A stretch of DNA of 64,000 nt, from positions 62,001-126,000 of the forward strand of contig JAKJXP020000084.1 of NCBI GenBank assembly GCA_022225965.2, in the 5' to 3' direction. Positions 34,241 through 50,268 of the stretch are shown piece by piece; within the stretch, counting starts at the first letter, position 1, and every line of letters begins with the position of its first letter. The position numbers and the translations under genes were made by a program. The stretch comes from Diatrype stigma (lineage: Eukaryota > Ascomycota > Sordariomycetes > Xylariales > Diatrypaceae). The notes under the pieces are model-generated. The model made no database searches, was not told the origin of the DNA, and was given only the letters and a program-made list of their open reading frames with translations.

Positions 34241-34625
34241 ATGCCCCCTAGAGAGAAAACACCTCTTCTTGAGGATGGAAATCAACCTGAGGAAATTACT
34301 GGTACTAGATCTGCTCTCGCAAAGACTTCTCTCCTACACGAGTAAACTGCTGATACTACTTGCAGATTCTCCAGAGCAACAGAGACCGAACGACCCTACG
34401 AGACCGGAGGACGAAAGAGATCTGAGAGGCTATAGACTTGTATTGTTGGTTTCTGCACATAACATATGGATAGGGCTTAGGTCTTATTTCGAATTCGGGA
34501 AATGGGCACAGGCATCCTTTTACGGCAAGTGGACGATCGTAGTTGGCGCCACTGCGGTGTTTTACTTCATCGGGGCGGGATTTTACATGATTCGGCTTTA
34601 CCTTCGTTTAAGACGCAGAAGATGA
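34241..34625 (+). CDS. Small membrane protein, two exons, unknown
   Basis: Splicing joins 34241-34301 and 34366-34625 through a 64-nt intron (GTACTA..CTGAT..TTGCAG) and gives 106 aa starting MPPREKTPLLEDGNQPEE. The N-terminal half is polar and Pro/Glu/Arg-rich. YRLVLLVSAHNIWIGL may be amphipathic or a short helix. WTIVVGATAVFYFIGAGFYM is a clear transmembrane segment, ending in the basic LRLRRRR, which suggests a cytosolic C-terminus. The unspliced frame would start later at an ATG inside exon 1. The spliced form is preferred because its N-terminus is more protein-like. I recognise no family, and it could be an orphan. Confidence 0.5.
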
Positions 34626-35846: not shown

Positions 35847-36004
35847 TGTTAAATATAAACGTAGGTTATAAGGTATTATATTATATTAGGTTATATTAAT
35901 ATTTTAGGAGTATTCTTTATAAACAGGTAAGGGCATTCCATATATATAGCCACAGGTATGGGGCGTTCCTAGCTACCTGGATTTCTAGCTATCTTATTCC
36001 AATA
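35847..36004 (-). repeat. 158-bp LTR (left; 3' LTR of minus-strand element)
   Basis: It matches 43269-43426 over its full length, differing by transitions. It starts TG; its end reads TA where the other copy has CA, as RIP would give. A purine stretch lies directly inside on the minus strand, as expected of a polypurine tract. Confidence 0.9.
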
Positions 36005-43268: not shown

Positions 43269-43426
43269 TATTAAATATAAACGTAAATTATGAGATATTA
43301 TATTGTATTAGGTTACATTAATATTTTAGGAATATTCTCTATAAGCAGGTAAGGGCATTCCATATATATAGCCACAGGTATGGGGCGTTCCCAGCCACCT
43401 GGATTTCCAGCCACCTTATTCCAACA
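43269..43426 (-). repeat. 158-bp LTR (right; 5' LTR of minus-strand element)
   Basis: Direct repeat of 35847-36004. On the minus strand it begins TGTTGGAATAAGG, a common copia LTR start. The outer end keeps CA. This copy has more C (less RIP) than the left copy in its outer part. Confidence 0.9.
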
Positions 43427-43893: not shown

Positions 43894-44724
43894 TCAGTCC
43901 CGTCTTCGAGTCACCCAGGCTTCTCTTGCACTCTGTTGATTCTCGGGAGAGGCCAGTCCCCGTCGGTCTGCGAAACTATTTCGCTGTTGCTGTTCGGCCT
44001 CGTCGGTCCCTGCATTTGATGCCTCACGCCCCGCCCCCATCCCCGTGTCATTGTGACTACCAAATGCAAAATCTGCATGCCCGTCTACCGCGTTGCCGTT
44101 AGCAGACATATCGGGGACGTTTGTGTTCGTGTCCATCGTTCGGTTCCAGCTGCCAAAAGTGAACTTTGCGTTTTTTCCCACTGTGTTGTTGTCCGCACGC
44201 ATCTTTAATGTAGTTTTAGCTCTGAAGATGACGTTTTATGAATGAGGTATGCTTACTTTCCCCAACATGGCACCCATTTTATCGCCAGACATGTGACTAT
44301 CTTGAAGTTGAGTGGTAATATTTGACAGCAAACAGTGGTTGTTATGTGCGAGATGTAAGAGGATGACGTCTCTCCTCAGAGAGAGGGCGTCGAAAAGTTC
44401 CACAAGTGCCGACTTTTGCTTTGAGACGTGAAAGAAGCTTATGAGTACTGGGGGTCGGCTACTCAAAAAAGACCGCGCCTTGCATGCCAGCGAAGACACC
44501 TCGATTGTGACTGAGAGGATGAAATCTCTCAACTCAACTGATGTAATGTCTTGTTCCGATATGTCGCGGAATAGTCCCAGCAGAAGCTCAATAGTAAGGA
44601 TTCGATCTCGGTAAGCGGCATGGCCGTTGTTTATATCCTTGAGAAGTTGGTACAGGACTTTACTGGCACAGCTGCAATAGCCTAGAATCTGGCTTATACT
44701 GGCAATGCCGCTAATGACATCCAT
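43894..44724 (-). CDS. Helical-domain protein with two C-terminal amyloid-like repeats (HET-S-like effector candidate)
   Basis: Two exons on the minus strand, 44724-44257 and 44202-43894, join in frame through a 54-nt intron to give 258 aa. Residues 1-156 are helical, starting MDVISGIASISQILGYC; this hydrophobic N-terminus and the later KSALVELFDALSLRRDVILL resemble Helo-like/SesA N-terminal domains of fungal STAND and HET proteins. Residues ~160-178 (DNNTVGKNAKFTFGSWNRT) and ~191-209 (NGNAVDGHADFAFGSHNDT) are two copies of one motif, 31 residues apart. The tail is Gln/Arg-rich and disordered. The layout matches HET-S: death-inducing helical domain, then two beta-solenoid repeats. The divergent neighbour carries a third copy. 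An in-frame extension upstream (to 44877) exists, but the chosen ATG fits the domain family. Family placement is by pattern only. Confidence 0.72.
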
Positions 44725-45694
44725 TGCGTGGTCGTACCAGGATCTTTGAAACAGGCTGGATTTTACGAGGAGGGGTATTATGGTGGTATACATACCATAC
44801 ATCCTGTTTATAAAATCCTTTGTAACAGAAGGTTCCGGAAGGTGGTTCATGATAGTACCTGTTTGGGCAGCCTGCATCTATGTGGCGCTTTACTTCGGTG
44901 TGTGTGCGCGCGTTTACCTGATATTGCCACTCACTCCAAGGACGGGCGCAAGGTATATGGTGAGGAGGTCCATGGGGTAGGATTTCTGCTGATACTCTAG
45001 TGGTGGAATGCCCAAAAGTGCAAAAAGGTCAGGACCACGTAGCCTCTCGACAGCGACTCATATTGACCGACGCGACGCCACAATATTCTGAATGATGATA
45101 TTGGGGTGGTATACACCGAGCCCTCCACGGGCCATCCACAGTCATCCTACATTGGCCCCTGTATAGAATTTGCCTCCTATACAAGATATCTTCACAAATC
45201 TAACCCGTGGGCATTCTTGCTATTAAACCGGCATCGTTGGCTCCTCCAATCTAGTTCGAGTTCGGTGATATACGGATTAGCCAAGTTCTAACAAAGAAGC
45301 AAACCAAGATCCCGAGGAAAACACAAATAGAGAGCCGTGAATGGAGCGGCTCTATCGATGAGTTGGTCCCGCGGAGATTCAAGTCGTGAGGCAGCAGCCA
45401 GGTTTGGGGGCTAAGAGCCTCGACCGAATGTAGGAGTAAAAGGCGTTCAAATGAGGCGTGGATGGGACTTGGAAGGGCAGTGTTCGCCCGGCTGATAAGG
45501 GGGCGGGGGGCAGATCTCAAACTGGCTTACCAAGTCATTTGCCTTGCATGTCGAGTATTTGGAACTGGTATTTTGAGCGTTCGGTGTGTTGCAAGGTTAC
45601 ATACAATATACTAAAGTCACCTGCTGGCATTTTGGTCCAGTCGCTGGGTGGAGGAGGCTACACTTGTGTCTTCTCATCCGGTCTGCTTCCAGCA
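44725..45694. promoter_or_regulatory. Divergent intergenic region of the motif pair
   Basis: 970 bp between the two head-to-head start codons, probably a shared regulatory region. A frame open from 45458 continues in phase into the right-hand gene, but the ATG at 45695 is preferred. No other gene seen. Confidence 0.45.
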
Positions 45695-46501
45695 ATGCCA
45701 TCCAGGACGGAGGCAAATCACAATGCGGTAAGGGGTGACGCAGATTTTACTCTTAATAGTCATAATAGGTCACACCCTACAAAGATCACACTATTCAAAG
45801 AACAATGGAAGACACCAGGAATCGTTGCATTTATCGTCGTGGCAATCGCACTGATAGGATTCGGCATCTTCAAGTCTCGAGAGAACCACACAGGAGAGGG
45901 ATATACGGTGAGTTGCAAAGCCAAAAATGTTGTCTTATATCAAATTCTAATAATGAAGTTTCTCCAGAACACAGCATCACCAGCAACCCTATCAGCAACC
46001 ATCTCTCCTACAACCACTTCCAAGGCATCATCACCAACCATCTCTCCTACAGCCAGTTCCAAAGCATCATCCACACATTCGACGACGTCTACACCAACTG
46101 AGCCTCAGGGCATTACCTCTTCTATAACATCGAGTTCTGGTTTATCAAGTACGTCGGTTGTTACGACTCCGAGCAGCACCATTGCTCAACCAATGCTTTC
46201 AACCCCGTCGACCCTAAACCCTATGACCACAACACTAGCGCCTGATACCGGATTGGTGAGTGGTCTACGCGCTGGAGAAACATGTACAGCCGATAGCCAG
46301 TGTATGCAACCGAATATCTGTTACACGGACACAGGCGACAGCATTACGACTTGCTGTGGCACGAATATTCCCGGCTGTCCTGGGTCGCCTTGCACCGACA
46401 GTAACGACTGCAGTGATCCATATGCTTGCGCAACAGAGGTCGGCACATGCTGTGGATATCCCCCTTACACGAGCTGGGCACAAGGAACTTGCTACACTTG
46501 A
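45695..46501 (+). CDS. Membrane protein: N-terminal amyloid-like motif, TM, Ser/Thr stalk, 12-Cys ectodomain (receptor candidate)
   Basis: Exons 45695-45907 and 45968-46501 (60-nt intron GTGAGT..CTAAT..CAG) give 248 aa. Residues 8-26 (NHNAVRGDADFTLNSHNRS) match the motif in the divergent neighbour; 11 of 19 positions equal its second copy. A transmembrane helix follows at ~42-59 (GIVAFIVVAIALIGFGIF), with more Lys/Arg before it, so the N-terminus is probably cytosolic. Residues ~72-160 are a Ser/Thr/Pro stalk likely to be O-glycosylated. The C-terminal ~75 residues carry 12 Cys in two related units, C-x5-C-x5-C..CC. The intron is a multiple of three with no stop, so a retained form would also be open. 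I know no named family with this architecture. Sensing at the cell surface is an inference. Confidence 0.72.
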   Translation: MPSRTEANHNAVRGDADFTLNSHNRSHPTKITLFKEQWKTPGIVAFIVVAIALIGFGIFKSRENHTGEGYTVSCKAKNVVLYQILIMKFLQNTASPATLSATISPTTTSKASSPTISPTASSKASSTHSTTSTPTEPQGITSSITSSSGLSSTSVVTTPSSTIAQPMLSTPSTLNPMTTTLAPDTGLVSGLRAGETCTADSQCMQPNICYTDTGDSITTCCGTNIPGCPGSPCTDSNDCSDPYACATEVGTCCGYPPYTSWAQGTCYT

Positions 46502-47339: not shown

Positions 47340-50268
47340 TCATCGACCATCCGCACTCCCATCCCTCTTCCCAAAGCGCGCGCCAAGCCCAAAGTTATCC
47401 CTGCGGAAGAAGTTTCCCATCTTCTTGAGGTTGTCGTTGATAGAGGCGTTCTGCCCACCAGCACCACCACCTACGCCGCCCGCTTGCTCGCCCCCATTGC
47501 CGGCACCACCAGCACCGCCGCCACCGCCCTGCGCGGCGCTGGCCGTGGCGGCGGCGGCGGCAGGCGTGCCGATGCGCTCGACGCCGTCCCTCGCGGCGTT
47601 GAGCAGCTTCTCGCCGAAGGTAGCGGCGTCGAATCTGGTCGTCGCAGCCGAGGCGTTGGCGCCTGATCCCTGTCCCTGCTGCCCAGTCACGGCGGAGCTG
47701 CCAATGCCAAGACCTGCGATGCCGAGGCCGAGACCGGCGATACCACCGCCGCCGCCGCCGGTATTACCACTACTACTGCCAATGCTACCCAGCCCGCCCA
47801 GGCCCGCGGAGTGGTTCAGCAGGGGCGTGAGCAGGGCGTTCTGGGCGACGAGGCGGCCCTCGTTGCCGGGCCCGTCGCGGTGGATGGCGAACAGCTCGAG
47901 CAGGTGGGCCTGCTCGGCGCGGCGGCTGACGCCCTTGAGGTCGAGGACGCGGCGGAAGTTGGTGTCGGATCGGTCGGCGACGTGGATCAGATAGGCCTGA
48001 ACGAGGGCCTCGGGCGGCGAGGCGCGCACCTGCAGGGTCTTGAGGAGCGGGTCGATGCGCGTCATGGCCGCGTTGACGCGCTTGACGAATCCGGCGGGGG
48101 GAGGCGGGTTGTTGTTGTTAGCGCTGCTGTTCCCGCCGATGGATGGCGACCCGGGTGCGCTAGCACCTCCGGCCGCACTCGACGAAGCGGCGGAGGGCTT
48201 GGCATTGTTGATATTCTGGCCGCTGTGGCTGTGGTGGTACGAGAGCAGGTTCTCGAAGGCCTTGGTGAGGACGTACTTGTCGAGCAGCATCTGCTCGGCA
48301 CCGACCTCGGAGACGGGCTTGCATTGGACGATGTTGGCCATGTAGGTGGTGGCCAGGTGCTCGATGAGCTTGTCGGCGAAGGCGCGGGCGTACTGGGGCT
48401 TGGCCACGACGGCCATGATCTCCTCGGCCTGGGAGTTGACGTGGCGCAGCAGCTCGCCCACGTACGAGCTCTGGTCGCCGACGCTCTCCATCTTGCTCCA
48501 GTTGGTGTTCCGCATCTCGCGCCAGGCGCCCTCGCACCCGGCCTCGACCCGCCCCACCAGCGCGATGATGGCCGCGCTCGCCACCCCCAGGAACGTGTCC
48601 GCCTGCGACGACAGATCCACCCGGGCTGCGAGGTCCGGGTCGATCCGCTTCTTGATGCTGGCCTCCAGCTGCTCCGTGTTGGTGTGCCAGAAGTCCGCCG
48701 TGTTCATGACGAGGATGATGTCGTGCAACGAAGGCCCCGACGGGCCGGACTTCTGCAATATCGCGAGCAACACTTGCTGTGCATATTCGTCCAAGTACTT
48801 TGCCAGCGTCTTCGAAAGATCTAGCAGGCGCTCACTTGTAGATAGCTTGGCGCACTGTGACAAAGTAAGTTTGTAGAAATGGAAGAGCTCGATCGCGGAG
48901 CTGATGACGGCCTGCGGGGCGAACTCTTCGTCGGGCGGTATGAGGGGCTGTGATTTGTATTTAGGGATCATAGCAGCCAATGTCTTGTCCTGCGACTCGA
49001 CCCATAAGCTGAGGTACGGTTCGAATGCCACCGATATCGACCCGTTAAAGCTCTGCGTCCTCTCGTCAGCGGAACTTAGGGTGTCGATGCTAGCCCTAGG
49101 CTCGCTAGCGAATCTCCTTTCCAGTGTTTGCTCAAAGTCCATCGTTTCCTGCAAACAGCTCAGCAGGAGGTTCACGTCGATCCGAGCGTTGTCCACCCTC
49201 CGCATGCTCTTCTCCAAAATACCCTTGTAATCGTCCCGCGTGCCGTCGCAGAAGGCCATGGCCAGGGTCTCGCCGACGCGCCAGTGCGGCGGGAAGATGG
49301 CGGCGTGCTGCTCCTCGTGGGTCTTCATCATGCGCTTGAACCAGGCGTAGCGGCGGCCGATGTTATCGAGGTTGCCAGCCTCGTCGTTGCCGCGGAAGAC
49401 CTGGCGGTACTCGCGCAGCTCGGTGTTGACGTACCATGCGACGAGGCGGGCCTTGGCGTTCTCGCCGAGCGCGTCCATGACGTGGCAGGCCTCGACGAGG
49501 ACGGCGCGGCGGGCGGCGACCTCGCCCTTGGCGAAGGCGATCTCGAAGTCCTCGCACACCTGCTCGAGCAGCTCGCGCTGCAGGTCGCCGACGCCGCGGC
49601 TCAGCGCGGCGATCTGGTCGATGCTGCGGTAGCTGTTGAAGTGGCGCATGAGCTGGAGCACGGCCTGCAGCAAGCCGGCGCACTCGCGGTACTGGCGGGC
49701 GCGGGCGAGCCCCCGCAGCTGCTCGTACGCCGTCGTCAGCATCTGCAGGCGCTTGAGGGCGGTCATGGACAGCGTCAGGTTACGCTTGGTGCCGTCGAGG
49801 CGCTTGATGTCGGCCGTCATGGATGTGATGTTCTGCTCGGTCTCGATGGCGCGCGACCGCACCGTCTCGATCTTGCGGAACAGGCCGGCCAGCTCGGCCT
49901 GGGCGGCCTGCATGCGCTCGAGCGACGAGTCGGGCCCGTAGGCCTGGGCGGTCTCGAGCCGGGCGATCTCGGCCGAGAGCTCATTGTGGTGCGAGGTCAG
50001 GTTCGTGGATACGTGGCTGATGGAAGTAACGGTAGACGGGTGGGAGAAGAGGAGGTTCAGATGTTGAATCGGGTCATATTCCACTGTTCGCTCGCTTACG
50101 TGTTAGTTGGTAGGGTCAGTTGGGATAGGCACATGGGCAGGGTAGTCAGTCAATAGGCGAGGGGGGAGAACGAAGCATAAGGCTGAGAACGTGGACGAGG
50201 GGTAAGGGTGAGAGGCAACGTGTCTAACCTGCATCTAGAGACAGCGGTTCCGCAGAACTGGTGCTCAT
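47340..50268 (-). CDS. VPS53: GARP complex subunit VPS53
   Basis: Vps53 is part of the GARP tether (Vps51-54) that docks endosome-derived vesicles at the trans-Golgi. The exons on the minus strand are 50268-50229 (MSTSSAEPLSLDA) and 50083-47340, joined to give 927 aa with the family start VEYDPIQHLNLLFSHPSTV. The N-terminal ~400 residues are coiled-coil rich (HNELSAEIARLE, DIKRLDGTKRNLTLSMTALKRL, RQYRECAGLLQAV, HFNSYRSIDQIAAL), as in the Vps53 N-domain. RIDPLLKTLQVRASPPEALVQAYL lies in the C-terminal part. The last ~150 residues are Gly/Ala/Ser-rich, low complexity. The donor GTTAGA is unusual, but the junction reproduces the conserved start. Long open frames on the opposite strand are shadows of its GC-rich codons. 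Confidence 0.95.

Follow-up and report, generated by a model that had tools for sequence, protein, structure and literature searches.

Two divergent genes of the ascomycete Diatrype stigma share a β-strand motif beyond chance, carried twice in the C-terminal tail of a helical protein (here called the effector) and once near the N terminus of a predicted membrane protein (the receptor). On balance, with confidence a little better than even, we read the two genes as a unit in which a membrane receptor would signal to a HeLo-like executioner via an amyloid-type motif, combining the logic of NWD2/HET-S with the topology of PGRP-LC. Both genes lie within a 64,000-nt stretch of contig JAKJXP020000084.1, referred to below as the window, and coordinates are those of the window unless another contig is named.

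Results

Locus organization and gene models

For the region 43894–46501, two head-to-head gene models of two exons each could be reproduced from the sequence, with the splice sites of both placed by eye, without RNA. The effector model runs on the minus strand from an ATG at 44724 to a stop at 43894 and encodes 258 aa. Exon 1 (44257–44724) encodes a helical, HeLo-like domain (aa 1–156), which was delimited using the gene model, an AF2 model, a profile match to PF17111 domains of the same genome, and relatives. A 54-nt, phase 0 GT..AG intron (44203–44256) separates this domain exon from the motif exon (43894–44202), which encodes a polar tail with motif copies r1 (aa 157–178; 44137–44202) and r2 (aa 188–209; 44044–44109), followed by the stop codon; r2 starts 31 residues past the start of r1. 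From its sequence, the effector relative on contig C15 (see below) is inferred to have an intron at the corresponding place.

The divergent start codons are separated by 970 bp (44725–45694). The receptor model, on the plus strand, extends from an ATG at 45695 to a stop at 46501 (248 aa). Exon 1 (45695–45907) encodes an N-terminal tail with motif copy r0 (aa 5–26; 45707–45772) and a transmembrane segment (aa 41–59; 45815–45871; Kyte–Doolittle mean of 2.63 over 19 aa). A 60-nt, phase 0 intron (45908–45967) precedes a Ser/Thr-rich stalk (aa 72–165; 45968–46249), with Ser or Thr at 51 of 95 positions across aa 71–165, and a Cys-rich tail (46283–46492), the predicted ectodomain, with 12 Cys and two CC pairs. 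Copies r0, r1 and r2 were assigned from the motif alignment, profile scanning and a check against published motif rules, together with a codon test for r0. On the receptor side, the neighbouring gene (47340–50102) encodes the GARP complex protein Vps53 (E = 4.6e-102). Two 154-nt direct repeats (35849–36002 and 43271–43424; 91% identical at a spacing of 7,422 bp) flank a block of 26–40% GC; the whole resembles a RIP-mutated transposon and ends ~470 bp past the effector stop codon.

A motif common to both genes

The original prediction had placed a 19-residue motif at residues 160–178 and 191–209 of the effector and 8–26 of the receptor, with six invariant residues (N3, V5, A9, F11, S15 and N17). 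When checked against the gene models, these ranges were correct, and all six residues are identical in the three copies. A further invariant residue, an Ala three residues ahead of the first Asn, was also found, and r0, r1 and r2 are taken here as 22 aa each. In their alignment, alternate positions are conserved (N6, V8, G10, A12, F14, F16, S18 and N20) with polar variable residues in between, the exceptions being Lys at position 10 of r1 and Leu at position 16 of r0. Such alternation of conserved and polar residues is the signature of a β strand with one buried face. In addition, Lys13 of r1 faces Asp13 of both r2 and r0, an arrangement that fits the description of HET-s-type motifs, in which repeats that stack on each other are complementary in charge (PMC4518210). 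Copy r0 is 55% identical to r2, compared with 41% to r1.

A profile made from the two effector copies was employed to scan all six frames of the window (58,276 segments). The receptor copy ranked third, behind only r1 and r2, with a score of 48.5 versus 25.0 for the next segment (mean −20.9, S.D. 8.3). That next segment (34449–34514) lies just ahead of a hydrophobic stretch in a short ORF and is probably a chance match, because its score drops to 15.3 once the receptor copy joins the profile. Smith–Waterman alignment of the effector tail with the receptor N terminus gave a score of 59, which was reached by 0 of 20,000 shuffles (maximum 50). The scan was also carried out with a three-copy profile on the window plus 73 loci, some of which overlap the window or one another (276,093 segments); r0, r1 and r2 scored 70.0–75.3, and all other segments 18.7 or lower. 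Peptide queries for further motif carriers in the D. stigma genome returned self-matches only, at a sensitivity too low to recover r0 from r1 and r2.

Codon usage in the motif copies

The age of the copies was assessed from the codons of their identical residues. The same codon is used at 2 of 9 identical residues between r0 and r1, 4 of 10 between r1 and r2, and 7 of 12 between r0 and r2. Expectations at saturation for these three pairs, respectively, are 4.66, 5.36 and 7.04 under the codon usage of the neighbouring Vps53, 3.15, 3.73 and 4.82 under the usage of the two genes themselves, and 2.83, 3.42 and 4.42 under uniform usage. Between copy pairs, second codon positions are equal at 16–17 of 22 codons and third positions at 6–11 of 22. 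Codon saturation together with the retention of second positions suggests that r1 is old relative to r0 and r2 and has been kept at the protein level. All these counts are small. For r0 and r2, a modest excess of shared codons is seen under two of the three usage models; the two added models thus weaken this part of the argument, and some shared later or recent history of r0 and r2 is possible. As the synonymous codons of r1 look saturated, and those of r0 and r2 partly so, while the protein pattern persists, the sharing does not have the appearance of a fresh duplication, and conservation of the motif at the protein level among r0, r1 and r2 is supported. On the profile scores and the codon test, we rejected chance as well as the idea that all three copies arose by recent duplication, with a reservation for r0 and r2.

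Comparison with HET-s-type motif rules

In PMC4518210, proteins with HET-s-type motifs (HRAM) are described as carrying two C-terminal copies with linkers of 6–18 aa (154 of 155), a conserved Gly19, and hydrophobic residues at positions 5, 8, 10, 16 and 18; in canonical HET-s motifs the NLR-side copy is closer to the second effector copy. The layout of the window pair is the same, with two copies in the effector tail and one in the partner, a spacing of 31 and a linker of ~9. The best register is identical in r0, r1, r2 and the copy on contig C139 described below, and in it four of the five hydrophobic positions are occupied (Ala at 5 counted), with Asn at position 8. Gly19 is found in r1 and r2 and is absent from r0 and the C139 copy. 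Strict HRAM membership was rejected because of Asn at position 8 and the lack of Gly19 in the receptor copies. Resemblance to the rules is by itself a weak indicator, since 236 of 60,269 window segments (0.4%) also have at least four of five hydrophobics plus Gly19. No Pfam family, PF11558 included, matched effector exon 2 at E ≤ 10 (HMMER filters on), nor did PF11558 match in the D. stigma genome, where the control was equally silent; among the published HRAM members, only 38 of 155 match PF11558 (PMC4518210). The HET-S/NWD2 logic originally proposed for this pair therefore stands as regards layout, adjacency, linker and the closeness of r0 to r2, and falls as regards strict HRAM membership and PF11558.

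The effector domain and its relatives

Single-sequence searches of the protein database with the effector returned nothing at E ≤ 10, and no relative was found in viral contigs. At the sensitivity used, the D. stigma genome contains only one relative (C15:597027–597467; 31% over aa 1–149). A profile search of the protein database yielded four more (P0001–P0004), all predicted proteins without DNA context. P0002–P0004 begin at the same Met as the window effector and P0001 begins 13 residues earlier; the start codon of the C15 relative was chosen at the Met shared with P0002–P0004. A first AF2 model from two sequences was poor (pLDDT 58.1) and was replaced by one with four helices (residues 2–32, 39–56, 63–89 and 106–154; pLDDT 77.0, pTM 0.68). 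Among the matches listed in the fold search of the PDB there were generic helical bundles only, and the structure and fold searches yielded no informative hit, with no HET-S or MLKL entry among the matches listed.

By hhalign, a two-member profile of the effector domain scored 28.9 against four PF17111 domains from the same genome (maximum of 19.6 in 150 column shuffles), and a six-member profile scored 25.2 (shuffle maximum 16.6). Likeness by profile to known members of the HeLo, HeLo-like and SesA class is present (p = 5.6e-4 and 3.7e-3), and the match is weak in that the hhalign probabilities are only 29.8 and 9.0. Two PF17111 domains of the genome, at loci L018 and L019, lie ahead of same-strand NPHP3_N-type NTPase frames, as in ordinary NLR layouts. 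No Pfam match, whether to PF17111, PF17107 and PF14479 or to another family, was obtained for the window effector. At E ≤ 10 the C15 domain matches PigL_N (E = 0.0041) and SesA only; SesA also matches P0001–P0003 (best E = 0.0026, P0001), the best match of P0002 is to another family, and P0004 has none, all matches of these relatives being below the curated cut-offs. The most hydrophobic 19-mer of the effector, residues 3–21, has a mean of only 1.32; in HeLo domains, a membrane-seeking helix sits at the matching N-terminal place. The profile match to the genome's own PF17111 domains weakly suggests that the effector domain is a remote HeLo-like relative, in keeping with the HET-S-like helical effector originally predicted.

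In the tail of the C15 effector, the motif could not be detected at significance (1,777 of 5,000 shuffles reach the score). MAFFT had placed a stretch of this tail against r1, and that alignment was dropped as not significant in the shuffles. Toward the end predicted for P0004, the most separate relative, is an Asn-Asn-Ser ... Ala-Ser stretch that may be a motif remnant or intron read-through.

The receptor and its relative

The receptor consists, in order, of the N-terminal motif tail, one hydrophobic segment (aa 41–59), the Ser/Thr stalk and the 12-Cys tail. Hydropathy and the Ser/Thr and Cys counts bear out the anticipated membrane partner with a Ser/Thr stalk and a Cys-rich ectodomain. Given the hydrophilic N terminus, the single hydrophobic segment and the disulphide-type tail, the N terminus is predicted to be cytosolic, with the stalk and Cys-rich domain outside. 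A Pfam scan of the 248-aa protein revealed no NACHT or NB-ARC domain with repeats and no PGRP family. Matches of the Cys-rich tail to Dickkopf-4 (E = 3.9 and 3.4) were not significant and were discarded. No relative was found in the protein database by single-sequence search at E ≤ 10.

In the D. stigma genome (49 Mb, 224 contigs), one further receptor relative was found at the sensitivity used (C139:92806–93144; 52% over aa 137–248); renewed searches with the C15 and C139 relatives led to the same places only. The short introns, NLR-type genes and an AT-rich block of this genome are in keeping with a filamentous fungus. In our splice model, the C139 relative is laid out like the window receptor and has an intron right after the membrane segment; 12 of 12 Cys align. 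At its N terminus is a TEA..N...G.A box that resembles a diverged motif, with the first in-frame Met 9 residues ahead of the TEA box (4 in the window receptor). When the box was compared with r0, receptor tail against receptor tail, the score was reached by 494 of 20,000 shuffles, a modest result; compared with the window effector tail, it was at chance level (8,592 of 20,000). With the three-copy profile the box ranked ninth of 276,093 segments, tied with two others, and five unrelated segments outscored it, three of them in NLR-type loci.

Pairing of the second copies

The C15 relative is found 282 bp and the C139 relative 1,085 bp from the end of its contig, each with its 5′ side toward that end. 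Although this orientation would fit a broken head-to-head pair, the joining is unsupported and the idea was rejected: the last 107 bp of C15 (L007 4144–4250) recur without any difference in the Gln-rich coding part of a gene on contig C21, and the C139 end is a run of C. The C21 gene is read as a Zn2Cys6 regulator, and the identity reflects either overlap in the assembly or a fragment that was recently duplicated upstream of the second effector. A check for the motif and its pairing, run inside this genome, had a mixed outcome, with a weakly similar box in the second receptor and no detectable motif in the second effector; because C15 shows no significant motif and the C139 box is modest, matched pairing is seen at one locus only.

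Discussion

In the proposed mechanism, the membrane protein would reside in the plasma membrane, the N terminus being cytosolic and the Ser/Thr stalk and Cys-rich domain facing outward, and its N-terminal motif would provide one β-strand-type rung. A ligand or a cell-wall disturbance would cause receptor clustering, whereby the clustered rungs would nucleate a cross-β (amyloid-type) stack. This stack would template the two-rung C-terminal tail of the neighbouring effector, and conversion of the tail would release the helical bundle for membrane attack. Membrane attack by the freed helical domain has been reported for HET-S, HELLF and HELLP. For the window pair, we infer that the motif is amyloid in nature, that the signal passes from receptor to effector, and that membrane attack and cell death follow.

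The same motif could act by ordinary, non-amyloid β-strand pairing, with the membrane protein docking or recruiting the effector at the membrane without templating. The alternating pattern is compatible with any β pairing, and key HRAM positions and a PF11558 match are missing; however, the two-versus-one copies, the linker length and the closeness of r0 to r2 reproduce the published HET-s-type amyloid layout, and we consider simple docking rather unlikely. Somewhat less probable still is a membrane protein that serves as an anchor or inhibitor, restraining or confining the effector with no ligand-sensing trigger. A single rung could conceivably cap a two-rung stack, and divergent neighbours may be co-expressed, but the conserved 12-Cys tail points to a function outside, and in NWD2/HET-S, FNT1/HELLF and PNT1/HELLP it is the bearer of the N-terminal motif that activates the executioner (PMC7889193).

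It is improbable that the effector is in truth triggered by an NLR encoded elsewhere in the genome and carrying this motif, with the membrane protein as a second input or an exapted copy. The genome does have 52 NPHP3_N and 22 NACHT matches, which overlap and include fragments, and clustering of HRAM effectors with NLR gene neighbours, though common, is not universal (98 of 155; PMC4518210). Against this, the best score within ~1.5 kb of the best 30 of the 52 NPHP3_N matches and of all 22 NACHT matches was 18.7, compared with at least 70.0 for the three copies; as diverged copies merge with noise near NLR loci and the peptide queries were insensitive, an unseen NLR could still exist. Chance, or a functionless local duplication or conversion between neighbours, is the least credible of these explanations and very improbable. 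It would account for a matched trio at one locus only, a second effector without the motif, and the 7 of 12 codons shared by r0 and r2 (4.82 expected under the codon usage of the gene pair), yet among 58,276 segments the receptor copy stands at 48.5 and the one ranked after it at 25.0, and r1 is at codon saturation relative to r0 and r2 with second codon positions kept.

Should the favoured two-gene receptor–executioner unit be correct, fungi would be able to link perception outside the cell to an executioner in a single step, in parallel to insect PGRP-LC/IMD. The trigger could then be applied externally, which would open ligand and activation to direct tests. More tentatively, and at somewhat short of an even chance, there may be a fungal class of cell-surface receptors by which HeLo-like executioners are set off directly through amyloid templating. 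Such a class would be the outward-facing equivalent of the NLR signalosome, and motif divergence between receptor paralogues (r0 versus the C139 copy) would insulate parallel pathways. In the parts of the papers considered here, fungal amyloid signalling starts from NLRs, or from the HET-s prion form in heterokaryon incompatibility, and triggering ligands are termed hypothetical (PMC7889193). Podospora is described as reacting to bacteria before contact (PMC4835503), a response that leads one to expect detection outside the cell. Among the open-access papers listed in literature searches, no title or opening abstract describes a membrane receptor of fungi that bears a motif for amyloid signalling.

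Of the systems described so far, the Podospora anserina pairs NWD2/HET-S and FNT1/HELLF resemble the window pair in having a helical executioner with two C-terminal copies and an adjacent gene with one N-terminal copy, in the closer match of that copy to the second effector copy, and in a similar linker. The window pair differs in that its sensor is a predicted single-pass membrane protein rather than an NLR, its motif departs from two HRAM rules, and its domain is only remotely HeLo-like. In PNT1/HELLP, a HeLo-like executioner is likewise triggered via an amyloid motif, the RHIM-like PP motif, which has an alternating core as seen here; as described in the part of the literature consulted, PP is single-copy in the effector with the core NxGxQxGxN, whereas the window motif has no Gln and is joined to another sensor class. 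Bacterial BASS motifs and BELL-domain proteins also involve an amyloid motif common to adjacent receptor and helical effector genes (PMC7889193); those sensors are NLRs, and the likeness is one of description rather than of motif comparison. Drosophila PGRP-LC and PGRP-LE have, in their cytosolic parts, amyloid-forming cRHIM motifs by which IMD is recruited (PMC9496462, PMC9531809), the cRHIM core [VI]-x-[VI]-G (PMC9531809) being absent from the window copies by inspection. The PGRP-LC/IMD system is animal and leads to NF-κB instead of a HeLo-like executioner, but like the window pair it has a receptor with a sensor domain and a cytosolic N-terminal motif (in the window, a putative amyloid one) shared with a cytosolic partner. 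PGRP-LC is a type II membrane protein, and by analogy PGRP-LC/IMD is the nearest functional precedent for the receptor topology proposed here.
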